Below, piece after piece: positions 7,853-64,000 of a stretch of DNA of 64,000 bases. Location of the stretch: contig JAUSND010000016.1 in assembly GCA_030646295.1 (NCBI GenBank), positions 248,001 to 312,000 on the forward strand. The letters are read 5' to 3'. Origin of the DNA: Moraxellaceae bacterium. GTDB taxonomy: Bacteria > Pseudomonadota > Gammaproteobacteria > Pseudomonadales > Moraxellaceae. Every line of letters starts with the position of its first letter. Within the stretch, counting starts at the first letter, position 1. The position numbers and the translations under genes were made by a program. Below the pieces are notes generated by a model. That model saw only the letters and a program-made list of their open reading frames with translations, was not told the DNA's origin and did no database searches.

Positions 7853-8824
7853 TCAGATAAAGTTTCTCAGCATCAGTTCGGGCGGGTGCGGCTCCATGTA
7901 AACCTGCTTCTCAATGTAAGCATTCGGATGGCGCTTCAGGTGGTGGCGCAGCAGGGTAAATGGCGCAATCAGTGGGACCTGCCCCTGACGATACGATTCA
8001 ATCAGGCGAACCAGTTCCTGCTTGCTGTTGCTGTCCAGTTCATGTTTTACATAGCCCATGAGGTGTTGCAGGACGTTGGCGTGATTGTTGTTGGTGGCAA
8101 CCTTTTTCAGGGTTTCCATGAAAATGCGGCCGTACTCTTCCTGCACATCATCCAATGGGCGCTGATGGGCATGCGCCACCACCCGGCCCAGATAGCGATA
8201 GGCGGGTTGATGATGCGACAGCAACAGGTATTTATGCCGGGCATGGAATTCCTGCAGCGTTGCCAGCGACAAACCGCTGTCCAGAAGGTCGCGCCAGCGC
8301 TTGTAGGCAAATACCCGTGCCACAAAGTTCTCACGCAGTCGCGCATCCTGCATGCGGCCTTCTTCTTCCACCGGTAAAAGAGGCTGTTGCCGCATGAATT
8401 CGCGGGCATAAAGCCCTGCGCTGGTCTTGCCCAGCGGGTTGCCGTTTTCATGGTAGACCTTGATGCGCTCCATCCCGCAACTCGGGCTTCGGCCCATCAG
8501 GATGTAGCCGCACAGCTGTGTCAGTTCCTTGCCCTTGGTAATGCCGTAGGCAACCAGCTTGTCCGTGACATCCAGGCTGGCGGTGCGATTGCCCACGGCG
8601 CGGATCTCGTCATGTTCAAGGCTGCCCCTCAGGTGGATGGCCTCACGTGGCGAGCCCATGCCAATGCCCATTTCCGGGCATACAGGCACAAACTCAAACC
8701 AGGACGATAGGGTTTGTGTGCAGTACTTCGAGTGCTTGTGGCTGCCGTCGTAGCGCACGGATTCGCCCATAAGGCACTGGCTGATTCCCACCGGGATGCC
8801 GGTGGGGAACTGGTGGTCGCTCAC
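7853..8824 (-). CDS. DUF523 (TudS-like) + DUF1722 (YbgA-like) two-domain protein
   Basis: GISQCLMGESVRYDG, GRSPSCG cysteine motifs; C-terminal YKRWRDLL...FHARHKYLLLSH. Confidence 0.9.
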   Translation of the reverse strand: MSDHQFPTGIPVGISQCLMGESVRYDGSHKHSKYCTQTLSSWFEFVPVCPEMGIGMGSPREAIHLRGSLEHDEIRAVGNRTASLDVTDKLVAYGITKGKELTQLCGYILMGRSPSCGMERIKVYHENGNPLGKTSAGLYAREFMRQQPLLPVEEEGRMQDARLRENFVARVFAYKRWRDLLDSGLSLATLQEFHARHKYLLLSHHQPAYRYLGRVVAHAHQRPLDDVQEEYGRIFMETLKKVATNNNHANVLQHLMGYVKHELDSNSKQELVRLIESYRQGQVPLIAPFTLLRHHLKRHPNAYIEKQVYMEPHPPELMLRNFI

Positions 8825-8883
8825 ACAATCCGTCCTGTCGGTAAAGTTGCCAGCAGCATGTCTCCGGACTTCATTCCTGTAAA

Positions 8884-10986
8884 TTACACATTCCCGATAA
8901 ACAGTTGTCGCAGCACCTTTTCCTTAAGGGACTCCGGATGATCCAGTTGCAGGCGCTCCAGCCAGGCGGCAGGTACTTCCTTGTTTTCCGTCATGCTGGT
9001 GACCAGTGCTTTCACCAGCTGCAAGGGATGTTCGGCACTTTCCTTCATGCGCTGGAGAATGCGGATGATGGCAAGTTCCTCTGGTGTAAAGTCAGAGCCA
9101 AAGGGAAAGTCCGGGAGCAGGTTCTCTTTGTTAAGGGATGCCAGGCGGTCTTTCATGGTCTCGGGAAGATTATGCTGGAGTGCCTCGGGAATCTCGTATG
9201 AGGGCTCTATTTTGCCGGCAGCCCTCGCCTGGGCAAGGAGCTCCGGCTGGAAACGGGAGTCGCTTATGGCCAGCAGACGCTTGATGATTTCACTGTCGGT
9301 CTGACCGCGTAGGTCAGCGATGCCATATTCGGTGACCACGATATCGCGAAGATGCCGTGGAATCGTGTTGTGGGCGTAATTCCAGACAATGTTCGATGCG
9401 GTTTCGCCATTGGTCTGTCGCGTGGCGCGCAACATGAGGATCGAGCGGGCATCGGGAAGTGCATGTGCCTGGGCGACAAAGTTGTACTGGCCACCGATGC
9501 CGCTGACCAGCTTGCCGGAATCAAGGCCATCCGATACCGCTGCGCCGAGCAGGGTGACCATCATGCAGGTGTTTACAAAGCTGGTGTCCTTGCGCTGCGC
9601 GGCGGCCAGTGACTCATGTCCATACAGCTGGTTGATGTAACTGATGCGAGTCATGTTGATGCCGGCTCGGCGTTCCGGTGTCAGCTGGTGCAGTTTTTCA
9701 TAAAAGTCGCGGGGGCCAAGGAAGAATCCGCCATGCATGAATACGCCACCCTTGAGTCTGGTGCCGAGGCAGTGTTGCTGGATGGCGGCATATACTTGTG
9801 CTGAGTTCAGGGTGTTACCAATCTGCTGCCCATCAATCAGCAGGTGATTACCATGAAGGGTAACTTCTTCCTTGAAGATGCCGAATTTCTTGAGAAATTT
9901 TACATCATCGGTGTTTAGCGTTTCGTTGATTACCCGAGCCTCAAGCAGGGCAGGAAGAGTGTTTTCATCAATGGTGGAGGAAAGTTTTCCTGCATTGAGC
10001 AACTGTTGCAGGCGCGCGTCGTCAAATACCTCGCGGCGCAGGATGCCTGCATCAATCAGGGCCATGAAGCCGTTCACGAACATCTCGGAGCAGCCATAAA
10101 GCCCCTGCCTGAACGGGGCGAGGTTGTCTTCGGGTGCACCCATCTTGCGACAGGCCGTTGCGTAGGCATCGTTGTGGCGGTCACGCAGAATGAGCGCGTG
10201 AGCAATGGCATCGCCCAGCGAGCCAATGCCGATCTGCAGGGTGCCGCCATCCTTGACCAGGGTGCTGACATACATGCCAATCGCATAGTCAGCCTGGGTG
10301 ACCTTCATGTTTGGTGCAGAAAAAACGGTGTGGGTACAAGCCGGGTCATTGACGATTGCATCAGCCATGACTTCATCAATGATGGCGCCACCCTCCATGA
10401 ACGGAAGCTCGTGATTGACCACCAGAATGACGTAGGCTTTTTGTCCTTTTGCCTTGAGCAGGTCGAGTGCATCCAGCGTGACATCCGGATTGCAACTCAG
10501 TGAGTATTCGGTTCGTCCACCCCGTTCGCGAACCGCAACGGCCTGTGCCAGCACATTGACGCCCTGGATCAGCATGTCGCGGGCGGCATGGGTATAGTTG
10601 CTGTTCATGTAGTTCTGTTGCGCATAGTCATTGCGCAGGTAGTCACCGGACTTCAGGAAAAACTCGATCACATCGATATTGGATGGCAGTTGGCCCTTGT
10701 GCCTGTCCTGCACATAATCGAGATCGGGGTAGTTGCCGAAAACACGGGCAACAAACGGGTCGAGAAAGCGGGACTCCATGTCACTGCTGGCTTTGGGTTT
10801 TTCCAGTGACAGGGCCGTCAGGATTTTCAGCTTGAGTCCGGGATTGGCTTTTGCCCGTGCATACAGGGCGTTCACCAGCGGATTGGGTTTTCCTATCCCC
10901 AGCGGAATACCCAGTACCAGGCGTGGACCCATGCGGGTGATTACATCATCCAGGCAATCATCGATACGGCTGAAGTGGCGAGTCAT
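8884..10986 (-). CDS. acetyl-CoA hydrolase/transferase family protein
   Basis: 700 aa; GIGSLGDAIAHALILR, VVTEYGIADLRGQTDSE motifs of the acetyl-CoA hydrolase C-terminal domain. Confidence 0.88.
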   Translation of the reverse strand: MTRHFSRIDDCLDDVITRMGPRLVLGIPLGIGKPNPLVNALYARAKANPGLKLKILTALSLEKPKASSDMESRFLDPFVARVFGNYPDLDYVQDRHKGQLPSNIDVIEFFLKSGDYLRNDYAQQNYMNSNYTHAARDMLIQGVNVLAQAVAVRERGGRTEYSLSCNPDVTLDALDLLKAKGQKAYVILVVNHELPFMEGGAIIDEVMADAIVNDPACTHTVFSAPNMKVTQADYAIGMYVSTLVKDGGTLQIGIGSLGDAIAHALILRDRHNDAYATACRKMGAPEDNLAPFRQGLYGCSEMFVNGFMALIDAGILRREVFDDARLQQLLNAGKLSSTIDENTLPALLEARVINETLNTDDVKFLKKFGIFKEEVTLHGNHLLIDGQQIGNTLNSAQVYAAIQQHCLGTRLKGGVFMHGGFFLGPRDFYEKLHQLTPERRAGINMTRISYINQLYGHESLAAAQRKDTSFVNTCMMVTLLGAAVSDGLDSGKLVSGIGGQYNFVAQAHALPDARSILMLRATRQTNGETASNIVWNYAHNTIPRHLRDIVVTEYGIADLRGQTDSEIIKRLLAISDSRFQPELLAQARAAGKIEPSYEIPEALQHNLPETMKDRLASLNKENLLPDFPFGSDFTPEELAIIRILQRMKESAEHPLQLVKALVTSMTENKEVPAAWLERLQLDHPESLKEKVLRQLFIGNV

Positions 10987-11083
10987 GTGCTGTCCTTGTT
11001 TTATGCCAGATGCTTTCTGAGTTATTTGAATTGATAGTAGCGGGAATATCGGGGACAGGCAGCTGTGCCAGATCAGTTACTGG

Positions 11084-11548
11084 TTAAAGAATCCCGGCCT
11101 CCAGACCGGCTGCCATTGTCATGCCAAGCTCCTCTGCCTGCCGCAGGAAGTCATCCTGCCAGTCCCCCCGGCAGACAACGGGTTCCTGCACCAGCTTCCA
11201 GCGCAGTCCCGTCAGGATGCTTTCCAGGGCACGGCGCGTGCCGGTGCCATCGTGCCCGGCCCGGATGAGGATGGCGCATGGCAGGCCCTGCTTTTTTTCC
11301 AGTACGGGGTAGTAACTGCGGTCAAAAAAATCCTTGAGGGCGCCGCTCATGTAGCCAAGGTTTTCGGTTGTGCCAAGAATGATGGCATCTGCTGCCAGTA
11401 CATCATCAGGTCCGGCTTCCAGTGGTGGCTTCCAGACGACATTGATGCCCTGGATGTCGGGGTGTCGGGCACCCTTGAGCATTGCCTCTGCCAGCAGGCG
11501 TGTATTGGGGGAGGGGGCATGGGCCACAATCAGTAACTGTCGAGCCAT
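11084..11548 (-). CDS. NADPH-dependent FMN reductase / flavodoxin-like protein
   Basis: ADAIILGTTENLGYMSGALKDFFDRSYY. Confidence 0.8.
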   Translation of the reverse strand: MARQLLIVAHAPSPNTRLLAEAMLKGARHPDIQGINVVWKPPLEAGPDDVLAADAIILGTTENLGYMSGALKDFFDRSYYPVLEKKQGLPCAILIRAGHDGTGTRRALESILTGLRWKLVQEPVVCRGDWQDDFLRQAEELGMTMAAGLEAGIL

Positions 11549-11560
11549 CCTTGTCTCCTG

Positions 11561-12502
11561 TCAGGTCTGGCTTTTTGCCTGTCTGCTGTACGGGTCGGGC
11601 AGGCTTTCGTTGCGCTTGAAGCGTTTGTAGCTCCACTGGTACTGCACGGGGTCAACCGAAATGACGCTTTCAACCGAACGGTTCATCGCTGCCGTAGCCA
11701 TGGCCAGATTGTCATTATAGATATCAGGATCGGGGGCCTCGAAGTAAATCTCGAAACCGTTTTCGACGCGCATGCAGTACATCATCACCGCGCGGGCCCC
11801 CGTCCGCCCGATGAGCTTTGGGACCATGGTCCCGGTCAGGGTATTGATGCCAAAGAAGGGCGCCATGATGCCACCACTGGTTTCCGGGACGTGGTCCGGC
11901 AGCACGGCAGTAAAACCGTTGCGCTTCAATGCCTTGAACACGGCTTTTACGCCACTCTCATCCGTCGACACCATGGTTGCCTTGAGGCGGCCACGGGCTT
12001 GCAGGACAAAGTGATCAACACCGGGATCCTTGCCTGGCTTGTACATGATGACGGGGGCAACATGCAGGCTGAGCCATGCATTCATGACCTCCCAGCTGCC
12101 AAAGTGCGGAACAATGGCAATGGTGCCATGCCCCTCTGCGATGGCATCGTGAAACAGGTGTTCGTTATGGACGCGACGGATGCGCTGCAGGCTGTACTCG
12201 GGGGGCATCCCCCATGACTTGGCAAACTCCATCATGACCTTGCCGGTATGAATGAAGTTTTTCCGGACCCTGTCTGTATACCAGTGCGTGTCATGACCGG
12301 GGTAGGCGAGTTCCAGATTGCGCCGGATCACCCGCGCTGCCCGGCTTTGTGGTGCCTGTGCTGCCAGCCAGCCCAGCGCGCCTCCCAGTGCCTGGAGAAA
12401 GCCCAGGGGAAGGGAGCTGAAAAAGCGCAACAGGCCAAGGTAGATATAGTCCTTGGTACGGAGCTGGCTGGTGCTGGAGATGCTATCGGAAGGTGACTTC
12501 AT
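11561..12502 (-). CDS. LpxL/LpxM-type lysophospholipid (lauroyl) acyltransferase
   Basis: VPHFGSWEVMNAWLS (HX4D/E-type motif), LPDHVPETSGGIMAPFFG, VDPVQYQWSYKRFK. Confidence 0.9.
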   Translation of the reverse strand: MKSPSDSISSTSQLRTKDYIYLGLLRFFSSLPLGFLQALGGALGWLAAQAPQSRAARVIRRNLELAYPGHDTHWYTDRVRKNFIHTGKVMMEFAKSWGMPPEYSLQRIRRVHNEHLFHDAIAEGHGTIAIVPHFGSWEVMNAWLSLHVAPVIMYKPGKDPGVDHFVLQARGRLKATMVSTDESGVKAVFKALKRNGFTAVLPDHVPETSGGIMAPFFGINTLTGTMVPKLIGRTGARAVMMYCMRVENGFEIYFEAPDPDIYNDNLAMATAAMNRSVESVISVDPVQYQWSYKRFKRNESLPDPYSRQAKSQT

Positions 12503-12661
12503 GACCGGGACAGGGTAACCGCCATATAAAGGCGTCAAGGATAACAGTCCTGCTTGAGTCAGACACCCTGCCGGAATCAGGCGGTGTACATGGCGTTTTA
12601 TTGGTGGGCAGGGCGGCCGTGTCGCTATAATCCCGGGCCTGTAAACAGGGCGGAGCCTGCT

Positions 12662-13267
12662 GTGGATTTTCTTGAACCGGTGCGAGCATTTCTGGCGTGT
12701 CCCACGCCGGATCGATGGGTGGAGGGTGCACTCAGGGACATTCCCCTGTTACTGCAAGACCATGCCAATTGCGAGAAAAAAGCCGCTGGCACCGCCATGA
12801 ACCTGCTGTTCCGCTACAGCGAGCGTCAGGAGCTGCAGGTGCTTCTGGCCCAGCTGGTACGTGAGGAAATGCTGCATTACGAGCAGGTACTCGAGATCAT
12901 GCAGGCACGGGGCATCCCCTACAGGCACGTGTCTGCGGCCCGTTATGCAACAGGACTACGCGAGCATGTCCGCCACGGTGAGCCGGATCGGCTGGTTGAT
13001 ATTCTTGTTGTCGGGGCGTTTGTAGAGGCGCGTTCCTGCGAGCGCTTCGAGAAGCTGGCCCCGCATCTGGATGCAGAGCTTTCCCGTTTCTATACCTTCC
13101 TGCTGCGCTCCGAGGCGCGGCACTTTGAGTATTATCTGGATCTGGCCCGCCAGTACGCACGCGAACCCATCGACGAGCGGGTGGCCTTTTTTCGTGCGGT
13201 TGAGGCTGATCTGGTCGAGCGTCCGGATACCGAGGTCCGCTTTCACAGCGGTCCACTGGCCTCCTAG
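12662..13267 (+). CDS. miaE: tRNA-(ms[2]io[6]A)-hydroxylase, GTG start proposed
   Basis: FLEPVRAFLACPTPDRWVEGALRDIPLLLQDHANCEKKAAGTAMNLLFRY; EARHFEYYLDLA. Confidence 0.92.
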   Translation: MDFLEPVRAFLACPTPDRWVEGALRDIPLLLQDHANCEKKAAGTAMNLLFRYSERQELQVLLAQLVREEMLHYEQVLEIMQARGIPYRHVSAARYATGLREHVRHGEPDRLVDILVVGAFVEARSCERFEKLAPHLDAELSRFYTFLLRSEARHFEYYLDLARQYAREPIDERVAFFRAVEADLVERPDTEVRFHSGPLAS

Positions 13268-14511
13268 GTCTTTTTCCGGCTGTTTTTCGATGTATCTGCG
13301 GGCGTGACGGCGTTATGCCCTTCGCGCATGCCGTTGCGCGACCATGCCGGCGATATCACCGGTGCACTGCGCGCATGCGCATTCATGCTGCCACGGTGCA
13401 CCGCAAAGGCGCCGAACTGTCCGTTCACGTTGTCCATCGCCTGATTCACGCTGTCATCCCCGGGCAGGGCAAAGAAGTCCGGTTGCATGCCACTGCGAAC
13501 AGGGGAGGCTGCGTGGATGCGGATCTGCTGTACCACCTCCCCGAACCAGTGTTGCCGCAGGAATCGTTTGCAGAGCCTGAAAATCTCCGCACCGTCACTG
13601 GTTCCTTGTTCCGTGCGCATCCATGCCTGCCGCCAGCCTTCCGGGCAGCGCATGCTGATGTGGTATTCCTGCACTACGTAGCCGTGCCGACGCAGCCGGG
13701 TGGCCAGTTTCTCGGCCATGTGCATGAAAAACCCATGAATTATCGTCACCTCCCGCACTTGCGGCGGCAGGATCTTGCCGTGACTCAGTGATTTCGGTTC
13801 GTGCGTTCGCTGGTCAACGGCAGCCGGATCGCGCCCCTGCGCCATCAGCCAGAGTCGTCGTCCCAGATTGCCAAAGCGCTGTGCCGGCACACTGATCGGA
13901 ATCCTTTTCATGTCGCCACAGCGATAGACGTCATATTGCGCAAAGAACTCGGCGATGCCAGGCCCGATGCCACAGAGCTCGGTCAGGGGGATGTTTGCCA
14001 GCCGCTGCTCGGCGTCGTCCGGATGTATCAGTGTCAGGCCCCCGGGCTTTTCCTGTTTGGCTGCCCATTTGGCTGTCGTCTTGTCACCGCTGATCCCGAC
14101 CGAGCATGACAGCCCCGATGCCTTCAGTACGGTTGCCCTGATCAGGCGCCCAATCGTCTCTGGCTGGTAGCGGTAATAGGCCTGACAGCTGGTCAGATCC
14201 AGAAATGCCTCGTCAACCGAGAAGACTTCCAGCTCCGGGGTGACCTCCTGCAATGCCGTCATGATGCGGTTGGAAATTTCGCTGTAGCGGGCAGGCCGGG
14301 ATACCACCCGGACAAATTCATGGCAGCGTGCACGAGCTTCAGCCCAGGGTGTTCCGGTGCGGATGCCAAGGGCTCGTGCTTCATAGGACGCGGCAATAAT
14401 CGTTGACCCTTGCTCGCCATTCACGACCCCGACGGGGCAGCCCTGCAGACGGGGATTGTCCATCTGCTCCACAGAAGCGAAGAAGGCGTCCATGTCGACC
14501 AGCGCAATCAT
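13264..14511 (-). CDS. Y-family (UmuC-like) DNA polymerase, start chosen at MIALVDMDAFFASVEQ
   Basis: MIALVDMDAFFASVEQ, FSVDEAFLDLT, SCSVGISGDKTTAKWAAKQEKPGG, LCGIGPG. Confidence 0.93.
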   Translation of the reverse strand: MIALVDMDAFFASVEQMDNPRLQGCPVGVVNGEQGSTIIAASYEARALGIRTGTPWAEARARCHEFVRVVSRPARYSEISNRIMTALQEVTPELEVFSVDEAFLDLTSCQAYYRYQPETIGRLIRATVLKASGLSCSVGISGDKTTAKWAAKQEKPGGLTLIHPDDAEQRLANIPLTELCGIGPGIAEFFAQYDVYRCGDMKRIPISVPAQRFGNLGRRLWLMAQGRDPAAVDQRTHEPKSLSHGKILPPQVREVTIIHGFFMHMAEKLATRLRRHGYVVQEYHISMRCPEGWRQAWMRTEQGTSDGAEIFRLCKRFLRQHWFGEVVQQIRIHAASPVRSGMQPDFFALPGDDSVNQAMDNVNGQFGAFAVHRGSMNAHARSAPVISPAWSRNGMREGHNAVTPADTSKNSRKKT

Positions 14512-59005: not shown

Positions 59006-60313
59006 ATGAAAGTCGAAACCCGGAAACCCGTTAACCTGTTGCCATCATTTGGCAAGGCTGCCATTCGCAATTCGCGGATCGGTGTCTTGCTGACGTCCAT
59101 GGCTATTGCATTCAGCGCTCCAGCTTTCGGCATGGAAGAGCTGGCTGAGGATGACCTGCGTGTTGCTACAGGCGAGGGTATTGCCCTTGCGCTGGACAAC
59201 TTCAGTTTTCGCATGGCACCCACCAGTTACATTGAAATGACGGGTTCTACGCCGTCAGGTGCCGCTGCAACGGCAGGCTGGAAGCGTGGCGACCTGCGCT
59301 GGTATGGCCTTTCCATGACGGGTGGTGATACGTCATCGGGTGCTGATTGGTATGCCCCTACAGGTGGCGGCTGTACTCCGGGTACGGACGGTCTCGGTTG
59401 CTCGATGGGTACGGGTGCCATTAAGGATTTTGCGTCGGTATACAATCCCTATCTCATTCGTGTTTTCCAGTACGCCGGTTATAACTACCAGGGTACCTGT
59501 CTGGGGACGGTGGTTTCCGGTGCATGTTCAACAGTGACAGCGGCATCACCAACCGTGTATGAGTTTATCGGCCCCAGCAAGGGCGATGCATGGCGCTGGG
59601 CTTTCTGGGGGCAGCTGGATGTCGCTCAGGGGGGCGCTCTTGCAGATCAGGGCTACCTGCAGAGCCAGACGATCATTCGTGGCAAGAACTCTACTCTTGA
59701 CGGCAAGTCGACCAAGCTTCAACTGCTGCAAACGCCAACGACTGTGGTGTCTGAGCAATCGTTGAGCCTTGTCTATCAAAGCCGTCTCTCCGGTGACTTC
59801 CGTTTCTCGCTGGGTCAGAAAGCCGTTGGTACCGAGGCGCGTAATAACGTGCCCGACTTCAATGACACTGAAGGTTTGTACTTCAAGAACGTGGATGCAT
59901 TCCTGCCACTGGGGCAACTGAACTATCAGACCATGGTGTTCAGAAGCGCGCCGGCCCTGGATGGCAACTTCATTCTGGAGCTTACTGCCATTCCCAACGT
60001 GGCGGCGGTGTACAACTCGTTTTACTGCGGTACCAACACATGTGCCACAACGACGTTCCAGGGTGGCAAGGTTGGTTCTACCGGCGCAATCCTGACTTCT
60101 GATGTGGTCAATTCGGTCGCCAACCCAGAGACTCATGGTTATGTCCGCTGGGGCACCACAACCGGTGCAGCACCTGTTGAGGGCTCTGCAGATACCACCA
60201 ATGGCATCTACTTCAAGGATAACGCCGGTACAGCTGTCAATATTGGCCGTGCCAAAATAGAAGGCATGATGATCCAGCAGTTAAAGTTAACCAGTCTGGG
60301 GGCGGGCACATGA
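59006..60313 (+). CDS. exported protein of unknown function, FEG motif paralog 1 (DUF6160-like)
   Basis: Extended Sec-like signal ending SAPAFG; MEELAEDDLRVATGEGIAL; three close Cys pairs; ATG chosen with GGAG 5 nt upstream. Confidence 0.8.
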   Translation: MKVETRKPVNLLPSFGKAAIRNSRIGVLLTSMAIAFSAPAFGMEELAEDDLRVATGEGIALALDNFSFRMAPTSYIEMTGSTPSGAAATAGWKRGDLRWYGLSMTGGDTSSGADWYAPTGGGCTPGTDGLGCSMGTGAIKDFASVYNPYLIRVFQYAGYNYQGTCLGTVVSGACSTVTAASPTVYEFIGPSKGDAWRWAFWGQLDVAQGGALADQGYLQSQTIIRGKNSTLDGKSTKLQLLQTPTTVVSEQSLSLVYQSRLSGDFRFSLGQKAVGTEARNNVPDFNDTEGLYFKNVDAFLPLGQLNYQTMVFRSAPALDGNFILELTAIPNVAAVYNSFYCGTNTCATTTFQGGKVGSTGAILTSDVVNSVANPETHGYVRWGTTTGAAPVEGSADTTNGIYFKDNAGTAVNIGRAKIEGMMIQQLKLTSLGAGT

Positions 60314-60993
60314 ACATGAACATGAGCAAATGGTTGCTTGCCGGTCTTCTGGGTTTCTCTGTGCATGCCAGCGCACTTGAGGCATTGCAGGATGGTGATT
60401 TGTCCGATGTTTCCGGGCAACAGGGAATAGCTATCGGTCTTGAGTATGGTGTGAACACGGATGCCAATGGCGCACCGCTGGCCAGTCTGGGTAATTGTAG
60501 TGCTGCGGGTGCATCTCCTTGCCGCTTTGCCTGGAAGATTGCCCAGCGCAATGCCAATGGCGGGGAGTGGACGGTATTCAAGGACTCCTACATGAGCCTG
60601 AAAATTCCGGCCCTGAACATTGGCGTAAAACCGACCATGGGAAGTGTTGCGTCCAACACCGGTTATTTTGACCTGACACGCTTCCAGAGCGAGACGGGTA
60701 CCTGCCTCTTGCCGGTGACCTGCGATACGGCAGGCATCAACACGCTGCCGGCCATGTGGCTGTTTTATCCGGCAGTCACTGTTGGCTACAACGCGACAAC
60801 CGGTGTCAGCTCCGGCTATACCAGCGTTCAGTTCGGTATGACGATTGGCCGTATGTCGATGGAGTATGGTGCAACGGGCTATAACCTGAATGCAGCAACT
60901 GGCTCTTTCCTCTCGGCCAAGATTGCGGATAACAACAATGCAAATTTTGCCGGTATTGCCTTCCAGGGCAATGCACTGATTTACGGCTTCTGA
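60310..60993 (+). CDS. exported protein of unknown function, paralog 2 (DUF6160-like)
   Basis: Signal peptide then LEALQDGDLSDVSGQQGIAI; two close Cys pairs; ATGA overlap with upstream gene. Confidence 0.82.
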   Translation: MNMNMSKWLLAGLLGFSVHASALEALQDGDLSDVSGQQGIAIGLEYGVNTDANGAPLASLGNCSAAGASPCRFAWKIAQRNANGGEWTVFKDSYMSLKIPALNIGVKPTMGSVASNTGYFDLTRFQSETGTCLLPVTCDTAGINTLPAMWLFYPAVTVGYNATTGVSSGYTSVQFGMTIGRMSMEYGATGYNLNAATGSFLSAKIADNNNANFAGIAFQGNALIYGF

Positions 60994-61041
60994 GTGCAGG
61001 CATGACCGGTTTAAGGTTGTGCGCCGATATCAACGCCAGAT

Positions 61042-62340
61042 ATGCAGAAAAGTGAAAAAGCCATGAAAAACAAATATTACAACAGACTCCGCTGGTTGCT
61101 GCTTCCCGCCTTGTTGGCAGCCTCGGGCTTTCTGGCCGCCGGCATGACATCTCTGGATGATGCCGAGCTTTCTGATGTGAACGGTCAGGCCCTGTTCATG
61201 GCGACCAAGCAGACGAATGGCGCGCATAATTTTTATCGCATGGGTTTTGATGCCCAACTGGATCTGAACGTCAATATTGCCGAGTTGAAACTGGGTGAAA
61301 CCACTACCGGTGTTGATCTCTGGGCGAAGAATCTGGCTTTGGGGTGTACGGCCAATGCCTCCAATGTGTGTGTTGATTCGGCCTCTGCCACACAGTTGCG
61401 CCCATTTACGCTGCTCCGTCCGTTTATCCAGATTGCGGTCAAGAATGATACCAATCGTGCTACCCGTGAGGTCGTTGGCTTTCGTCTGGGGGCAGAAAAT
61501 GCCTCTGGCCCGATGAGTATCGGTAACTTTGAAAGCTTCAGTGGTTACCTTACGGCAACGGCCAATATTGAAATGCAGGAGCAGGGCAAAGGACGAAATC
61601 CGGATGATGTGGCAGTGACCTGCGGCCCGACAACAGCTCCGTGCCCGCGTCCGGGGGATGATTTAGGAAATAATGGTGTTAATACTTTCGGGCTAAATGA
61701 GCCCTTGCGTGCTTTGGGCCTGAATAACGATCAGGCCTGTCTGTTGAGTATTTGCGCACAGTTCAGGGATCTTACGGCCAACTACGATGCAGTGGCCAGA
61801 AACAATCTGCCGGTTGTTCTGAGTGGCCGTCGCCAGACCCAGGCATTTATCCAGAATGCCCGTCTGTCCGAGGCAGTGGACTCCATCACGGGGTCCATGG
61901 GCATTTCGCGCAGTAACTCGGCACTGTCTGCGGGCCTGATCAACGTCATCCTGCCGATTCTGGCCGGCCAGGTGGGTGACAAGATCAAGTCGCAGCTGGC
62001 AACCGGTCTTGGCACAACGGTTGCCAATCTGAATACCTACCAGATTCCCTACAATGTGCAAAACCTGCACAGTGCCGAAGTGAACTCAACGCTCTTTGGC
62101 TTGTCCTTTCAGAAAGAGGCCGGGGTGCAGTATCCGGGCTATGCAATCGGTATGCAGAAGGGCTGGAGCATGTACCTTCCAAATGCATTCACCCTGACGG
62201 TTTCGCAGCCGACCACACAGTTTGTGAGTAACATCATGTCGGGTGCTGCGGCTGCCGGTAATATCATCGGGTTGCCTACGGCAGTTGGTGGCGGCGGCAG
62301 GGTGTATGACAATTGCTGGGGCACGGCGGTTTTTTGTTGA
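61042..62340 (+). CDS. exported protein of unknown function, paralog 3 (start may be 61063)
   Basis: Signal peptide then MTSLDDAELSDVNGQALFMA; four close Cys pairs. Confidence 0.82.
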   Translation: MQKSEKAMKNKYYNRLRWLLLPALLAASGFLAAGMTSLDDAELSDVNGQALFMATKQTNGAHNFYRMGFDAQLDLNVNIAELKLGETTTGVDLWAKNLALGCTANASNVCVDSASATQLRPFTLLRPFIQIAVKNDTNRATREVVGFRLGAENASGPMSIGNFESFSGYLTATANIEMQEQGKGRNPDDVAVTCGPTTAPCPRPGDDLGNNGVNTFGLNEPLRALGLNNDQACLLSICAQFRDLTANYDAVARNNLPVVLSGRRQTQAFIQNARLSEAVDSITGSMGISRSNSALSAGLINVILPILAGQVGDKIKSQLATGLGTTVANLNTYQIPYNVQNLHSAEVNSTLFGLSFQKEAGVQYPGYAIGMQKGWSMYLPNAFTLTVSQPTTQFVSNIMSGAAAAGNIIGLPTAVGGGGRVYDNCWGTAVFC

Positions 62341-62393
62341 ATGTCGCCTTTACAGACTGAAAAGTGGAACGACCAGATTATCGAGCGTGGCGT

Positions 62394-64000
62394 ATGCATA
62401 AAATAAAAATGAAAGCATTGGCGCTGGCAATCCTGTTGTCAGGTGGCATTGCACATCCGGTACTGGCACTGGATGACATCACCGATGGCGAGCTTGCCGA
62501 TATTTCCGGTCAGGATGGCTTGTCACTCAGCTTCACCGATCCGCCAGCCGGGGTTCAGGCAAATACAATCCAGTGGCAAACCACGCCCACCAATGGTCTT
62601 GAGCTTGGTTCAGCGGCCACGCCGGTGAATCTCAAACGCATAGATACCTCACGCCCCTTGATCAATGCCCATCTTGATGCCGGCTCCGATGGCACCACTC
62701 CATGGGTGTCACTGAATACGGACTGGGCCAATTCACGTCTGGATATCGGCTCGATTGGCCTGACGGGCGTCAGCGGCAGCTTTGGCCGTTATGTGATTGA
62801 TGCGGCAGGCACCTTCAGTGTGCGCAATGCGGGTGGCATTCTTAACGTCAACAGTGCTACCTGGGGTGCAGGCACAACAATCAACATTGGTGGGGTGAAT
62901 CCCGCCTTGTGGACGCCAGGCACTCTGGGCGCCTCGACTCCTGGTCAGATCTACTGGCGGCAGGGAACGTCCGAGTTGAGTATGGGTGACTACACCTTTT
63001 TCTTTGACATGACGGATGGGCGTATTGGCGTTGACAACAATGGTTTGCTTGTCCAGAGCAAGCCAGGCTCTAAAATCAAATTCGCCTTGTCGCTCGATTT
63101 CACCTATGACGCCACCGGTACGTCTCCCTTTGCAATTACGGGAGCGGACAAATCAATGCTGTACTGGGGCTGGCGCGGGCACCAGACGGACTTTACTCTT
63201 CGGCTGAATGGCAAGGGTCGTGTAAAGGATGATAATACTGGCAACCTGAACGGCTTGGGCGCTTCTCTGGCGTTCAATTATGACCCCGATTTTGTCTGGA
63301 TCATTGGTGAGGGCGGTACCAATCCGTTCAAGATCGAGTTTGGTAACTGGACGCTGCTGCCGGGTAATACGCTGGCATATAACCTGCCATCCGTGACACT
63401 GGATCAGCTTGATGTCGGGCAAGGGGTTGCAGGTCTGTGCTGGGGTCAGAACACGATTAGTGCAACTGCCAACGGCACGTGTACAGGATCCGGAACAGGT
63501 TCTGCAGCTAGCAACTTTGCCGCACAACCAATCAAGGTTCGTGCAGCGGCAGATGCCAAGGCACTGGCCCTTGGTGTTCGCGACATGACTCTTTCGGCAT
63601 ACTCATCAACAGTCGACCTGATTGATCGTACGTCCAATGCCGCCAAGGCTCCACAGCGCTATAACTGGGCACTGATTTATACGTTCGCCAATCTGGATGC
63701 CGACATCATCGTGACGCCGGTCGCAAGCAGTGACCGCATGCGGCTTGATCTGGCGCTGACAACCCAGACTCTGGAGACCGGCGACACCAATCGCTGGCAG
63801 AAAGGCACCAACTTCATGATTGGTGATACTGATACAGGGGTGAATCAGGGCATAGGCTTGATAGGCGCTGATGTTCTGATGGCAGTCCGTAATGGCACGT
63901 TGGGCCAGACAGCGAGTGGCATCAAGTTTGATTCTCCCCAGGTGCGTTACCAGTTGCGCGGGATGATTGCTGGCGGTGCTATTCCCGCTATGCCTGTCAT
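62394..64000 (+). CDS. exported protein of unknown function, paralog 4, 3'-truncated by window edge
   Basis: Manual translation MHKIKMKALALAILLSGGIAHPVLALDDITDGELADISGQDGLSLSFTDPPAG... open to window end; absent from ORF track. Confidence 0.82.
   Translation, partial: MHKIKMKALALAILLSGGIAHPVLALDDITDGELADISGQDGLSLSFTDPPAGVQANTIQWQTTPTNGLELGSAATPVNLKRIDTSRPLINAHLDAGSDGTTPWVSLNTDWANSRLDIGSIGLTGVSGSFGRYVIDAAGTFSVRNAGGILNVNSATWGAGTTINIGGVNPALWTPGTLGASTPGQIYWRQGTSELSMGDYTFFFDMTDGRIGVDNNGLLVQSKPGSKIKFALSLDFTYDATGTSPFAITGADKSMLYWGWRGHQTDFTLRLNGKGRVKDDNTGNLNGLGASLAFNYDPDFVWIIGEGGTNPFKIEFGNWTLLPGNTLAYNLPSVTLDQLDVGQGVAGLCWGQNTISATANGTCTGSGTGSAASNFAAQPIKVRAAADAKALALGVRDMTLSAYSSTVDLIDRTSNAAKAPQRYNWALIYTFANLDADIIVTPVASSDRMRLDLALTTQTLETGDTNRWQKGTNFMIGDTDTGVNQGIGLIGADVLMAVRNGTLGQTASGIKFDSPQVRYQLRGMIAGGAIPAMPV

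Follow-up and report, generated by a model that had tools for sequence, protein, structure and literature searches.

The four exported proteins encoded in tandem downstream of thrH on a contig of a Moraxellaceae bacterium, designated here P1 to P4, carry 22 cysteines that form 11 consecutive close pairs, with gaps of 5-14 residues and every cysteine in the mature region. Close pairing is a rule of the family to which these proteins belong and not a peculiarity of P1-P4. The pairs are very probably intramolecular disulfides, formed by DsbA and DsbB, that close small loops on a set of putatively beta-rich envelope proteins, the bonding itself being predicted. Ten of the 11 pairs lie inside the window, i.e. 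the whole stretch of 64,000 nucleotides that was analysed, and the eleventh lies just beyond its edge.

The P1-P4 operon and its cysteine pairs

P1 to P4 are encoded by consecutive + strand ORFs that lie head to tail, 3' of thrH. The P1 gene (59006-60313, ATG at 59006) encodes 435 residues, with a signal peptide predicted at about residues 1-42 and the motif MEELAEDDLRVATGEGIALALDNFSF, and its product is 97% identical to the counterpart in the near-identical MAG UBA8513. Its stop is overlapped by the start of P2 (60310-60993, 227 residues). P3 occupies positions 61063-62340, from a likely ATG at 61063 in a longest ORF that opens at 61042, and P4 runs from a likely ATG at 62394 to position 64000 and past the window. 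Read from this ATG, P4 would have about 704 residues; its longest ORF, from 62364, has 714 and stops 508 bases beyond the window (full sequence at L004 4364-6508). P1-P4 were searched against 78 relatives, whose operon regions were then read, and homologs of P1, P2 and P3 were found in 24, 19 and 26 of the 78 genomes, respectively.

Genes of this kind occur throughout Moraxellaceae and, beyond it, in Alcanivorax and further families of the same order, and the four-gene order is conserved in many genomes. Among some relatives (L139, L140 and L131, from genomes G044, G031 and G019), the alternative order P1-P2-P4-P3 instead of P1-P2-P3-P4 was observed, as were two or three tandem P3-type genes. 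At L130, in another relative, a 1909-aa open frame without cysteine (8273-14000) lies directly downstream of the operon, and its repeats match calcium-binding RTX-type profiles. This unannotated operon becomes a concrete, testable set of candidate surface proteins.

Each of the ten pairs listed in a preliminary description of the window was located, all on the + strand. P1 (gaps 9, 9 and 5) contains CTPGTDGLGC (C123/C132, 59372-59401), which is invariant in the 14-row P1 alignment, CLGTVVSGAC (C165/C174, 59498-59527) and CGTNTC (C341/C346, 60026-60043), whose spacing ranges from 5 to 10 among homologs. The second of these is an insertion loop in a few P1 homologs; in most, the loop and both cysteines are jointly missing. 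P2 (gaps 8 and 6) contains CSAAGASPC (C63/C71, 60496-60522), present in 30/30 homologs, and CLLPVTC (C132/C138, 60703-60723), present as a whole pair in 18 of the 30 and missing as a whole pair in the other 12. In P3 (gaps 8, 7, 5 and 7; residues numbered on the ORF from 61042) the pairs are CTANASNVC (C102/C110, 61345-61371; 31/36 homologs), CGPTTAPC (C194/C201, 61621-61644), CLLSIC (C233/C238, 61738-61755) and the C-terminal CWGTAVFC (C425/C432, 62314-62337). In P4 (gaps 14 and 7) the pair CWGQNTISATANGTC (63438-63482, cysteine codons at 63438 and 63480) is present in 17/17 homologs, and CAFGVASC (residues 666/673 of the 714-aa ORF, L004 6359-6382) is the pair outside the window. The observation that no cysteine is left unpaired thus holds for mature P1-P4, including the remainder of P4, which adds exactly one pair. 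None of the four signal peptides contains a cysteine, and no sign of lipoprotein anchoring was seen in them. When cysteines are placed at random in the mature chain, pairing as tight as that observed is reached with p=0.0014 (P1), 0.016 (P2), 0.0003 (P3) and 0.005 (P4), for a combined p of about 7e-8 across the four proteins.

Family membership and turnover of the pairs

P2 belongs to DUF6160 (PF19657; 30.5 bits for a cut-off of 27 bits); P3 (21.7 bits) and P4 (15.3 bits) score below the cut-off and P1 has no Pfam match. The DUF6160 model spans the N-terminal motif region only, and the bodies of P1-P4 are matched by no Pfam model. Directly behind the signal peptide, all homologs have a stretch of 20-25 residues with the pattern A-[LM]-x-x-[LM]-x-D-x-x-[LM]-x-x-x-x-G-[QE]-x-G, which is reminiscent of double-glycine leader motifs, though it is placed behind a Sec signal. 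P1 and P3 have the post-signal motif LxDxxLsxVtGQ in common. P1, P2 and P3 align with one another over only the 17-23 residues that follow the signal peptide, so that their initial designation as four paralogs is valid for that segment and, in the pairs tested, does not extend beyond it.

The nearest described system is FilA, encoded by the Acinetobacter fil cluster (NF050077; A1S_0690-0695), which resembles P1-P4 in its Sec signal followed by A-[LM]-E-x-[LM]-x-D-x-x-L-x-x-x-T-G-Q-D-G-[IL]. The FilA cut-off (220 bits over about 280 aa) is not reached by P2 (24.7 bits), P4 (15.8) or P1 (12.1), which match at the N-terminus only, and P3 gives no match; hhalign aligns the N-terminal ~180 residues of P4 with FilA profiles (E 3.5e-7, 93%). 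True FilA proteins differ from P1-P4 in their length of about 280 aa, their own tandem arrays elsewhere in the genome and the absence of cysteine. Four Cys-free FilA-type proteins are encoded in tandem on the - strand in the genome of P1-P4 (L005 3023-6924; G000:C8, ~95-99 kb), with 147-190 bits against NF050077, below 220, and a single full-length, Cys-free FilA (G000:C8:474149-474955, L200) scores 229 bits, above the cut-off. In relatives, FilA-like neighbours are either Cys-free or contain close pairs only. The fil cluster is described as 'putative type III pili' and over-expressed in pellicles, and, according to PMC5757984, even in Acinetobacter its role had yet to be examined. A literature search retrieved no functional study of P1-P4-type proteins and DUF6160 was mentioned in a single paper, on an unrelated topic.

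The pairing rule was examined in the 114 homologs, from about 30 genomes, whose mature start could be recognised. Their 363 mature pairs all have gaps of 1-19 residues, with a mode of 7. Close pairs only are present in 110 of the 114 homologs; the other four have odd counts owing to one extra cysteine, located 2-4 residues into the mature cut but within the signal peptide (e.g. VSCAQAG, LTSCIASA), so that their mature regions obey the rule too. In a wider, order-level sample, 24/24 recognised family members obey it as well; two come from genomes that the first set had covered, which leaves about 22 new and more distant members. The scan of the collection used a narrower P1 alignment, the wide one being too divergent. 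Three apparent rule breakers (L229 1312-1830, + strand; L233 223-1284, - strand; L234 2797-3393, - strand) run antiparallel to the family gene; they were discarded as ORFs, overlapping it or next to it, that matched the motif pattern by chance.

In the alignments the pairs fall into about 60 sites, of which P1 has 26, P2 7, P3 22 and P4 5, and insertions often host them. On Cys-masked trees, the homolog alignments reveal the joint gain and loss of paired cysteines that the preliminary description had proposed to look for, with at least 103 gains or losses of whole pairs, a number that is strong but approximate, as homologs are not independent and as both the alignment and the simple way in which sites were clustered affect it. 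Homologs that keep a single cysteine of a pair, which had been held to speak against loop closure, amount to the one case found: the P3 protein of Alcanivorax sp. NORP25 (L190) has one cysteine where its relatives have CLLSIC. The set of 114 homologs contains no such half pair. More than 100 insertions or deletions of whole staples make this family a natural data set on the evolution of local disulfides.

Probable loop closure and its alternatives

In the proposed mechanism, P1-P4, as a co-transcribed set belonging to the FilA/DUF6160 group, would be exported via Sec to the envelope or the cell surface. Periplasmic DsbA/DsbB would oxidise each close pair to an intramolecular disulfide, and each disulfide would close a short glycine/threonine-rich loop, typically of 5-14 residues. 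DsbB is encoded in the genome (154.6 bits), which, like the conserved order of the four genes, fits this mechanism. The staples may lend stability to loops that are exposed and evolve fast, and the one at the end of P3 may hold its C-terminal tail in place. Since the pairs are local, consecutive and far apart from one another, they could form correctly without an isomerase and thus be freely added or removed together with their loops. The gain and loss of entire pairs across relatives argues strongly for small disulfide staples closing surface loops. The loop interiors, which are rich in G, T, A and S (with enrichment of G, T and A), poor in charged residues and depleted of E, M, Q, I, R and K, argue in the same direction as the loop insertions; the orphan cysteine of the Alcanivorax P3 does not fit. 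It also counts against this reading that the FilA paralogs proper in this genome are devoid of any cysteine, so the staples are dispensable for the fold at large.

Structure predictions are consistent with loop closure without proving it. AlphaFold models built on shallow alignments reached a mean pLDDT of 48.8 for P2 and 67.7 for P3 (pTM 0.63). The P3 model consists mostly of strands and places two pairs at hairpin-like positions: pair 1 (C68/C76 in the model) is predicted in a strand-strand loop with moderate confidence and pair 3 (C199/C204) on two short adjacent strands with low confidence. The two other pairs, including CGPTTAPC, fall in unmodelled or low-confidence stretches. The beta-rich scaffold suggested initially is tentatively supported by the strand-rich P3 model, the P2 model being poor. 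Searching the PDB with the P3 model (Foldseek) returned nothing at E<=0.001, and when sequences of solved structures were searched, P1 matched nothing and P3 a single polygalacturonase, without significance (E 0.072).

Paired cysteines are also typical of sites that bind metals, Fe-S clusters or haem and of redox-active thiols. Such a function is highly improbable here: gaps spread from 1 to 19, CxxC motifs (gap 3) account for 5 of the 363 loops and His is not enriched within loops. Metal or haem sites were rejected on this spacing and on loop composition. Furthermore, pairs occur one at a time and at positions that vary from homolog to homolog, which leaves no constant set of four ligands. 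It is also improbable, to a somewhat lesser degree, that the cysteines cross-link P1-P4 into a pilus-like polymer through inter-subunit disulfides. Such a polymer would be in line with the annotation of FilA-type proteins as putative pilus components and with the joint encoding of four different subunits; however, single cysteines co-varying between proteins would then be expected, whereas whole pairs come and go independently as units within each protein, and their very short spacing favours local closure.

The bias of exported proteins towards even numbers of cysteines is documented (PMC7678975), and P1-P4 have even counts, Sec export and a DsbB-encoding genome in common with known DsbA substrates. 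The pairs might thus express a general preference in DsbA species, with no special role for the loops. The control for this background is the operon's own 580-kb contig, a rough one since a simple script decided which ORFs counted as exported. Among its 20 exported-like ORFs with at least four cysteines, five are fully paired at a gap of at most 15, namely 4/4 of the operon and 1/16 of the others (Fisher p = 0.001), as compared with 4/199 non-exported ORFs with at least four cysteines. At a gap of at most 19, 7/20 exported-like ORFs are fully paired (p = 0.007). The two additional ones encode a FadL/TodX homolog and a DUF1302 protein, both of the outer-membrane beta-barrel type with disulfide-closed loops, whose cysteines likewise all form consecutive pairs, with gaps of 4-19. 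P1-P4 thus share this style of pairing with outer-membrane proteins, which is in line with loop closure and also lends the general preference some support. No sequence similarity was found between P1-P4 and these two proteins. The far tighter spacing in P1-P4, the turnover of pairs as units and the survival of the pairing rule through so many pair changes set them apart from ordinary even-Cys exported proteins, and a mere general preference appears about as improbable as cross-linking between subunits. The DUF1302 gene (G000:C8 493345-495324) adjoins a DUF1329 gene (491852-493237), both on the - strand; the DUF1302 protein has three close cysteine pairs and the DUF1329 protein one.

The putative C-terminal staple of P3

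The last pair of P3 is nearly invariant. In 35/36 P3 homologs the protein ends in C-X6-C-COOH, the last cysteine being the final residue, with the terminal consensus N-C-[WYMFHR]-G-x3-F-C. Some more distant relatives of P3 end in F, or in C-X6-C or C-X7-C without the N-C-aromatic-G-x3-F-C consensus. We know of no described family with an N-C-aromatic-G-x3-F-C-COOH ending. In a group annotated only as DUF6160 or 'putative pilus', so constant a staple suggests an element with a specific function. One speculative possibility, to which we give a rather low probability, is that the terminal C-X6-C acts as a dedicated, disulfide-locked signal by which a FilA/DUF6160 surface system, itself undescribed, would direct outer-membrane targeting or subunit assembly. 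Among P2 homologs the usual ending is aromatic-G-F, which in some of those from other genera is replaced by C-X6-C or C-X5-C. The C-terminus of P2 itself, ...ALIYGF (60981-60990 in the window), has the aromatic-G-F ending, which resembles the BAM beta-signal.
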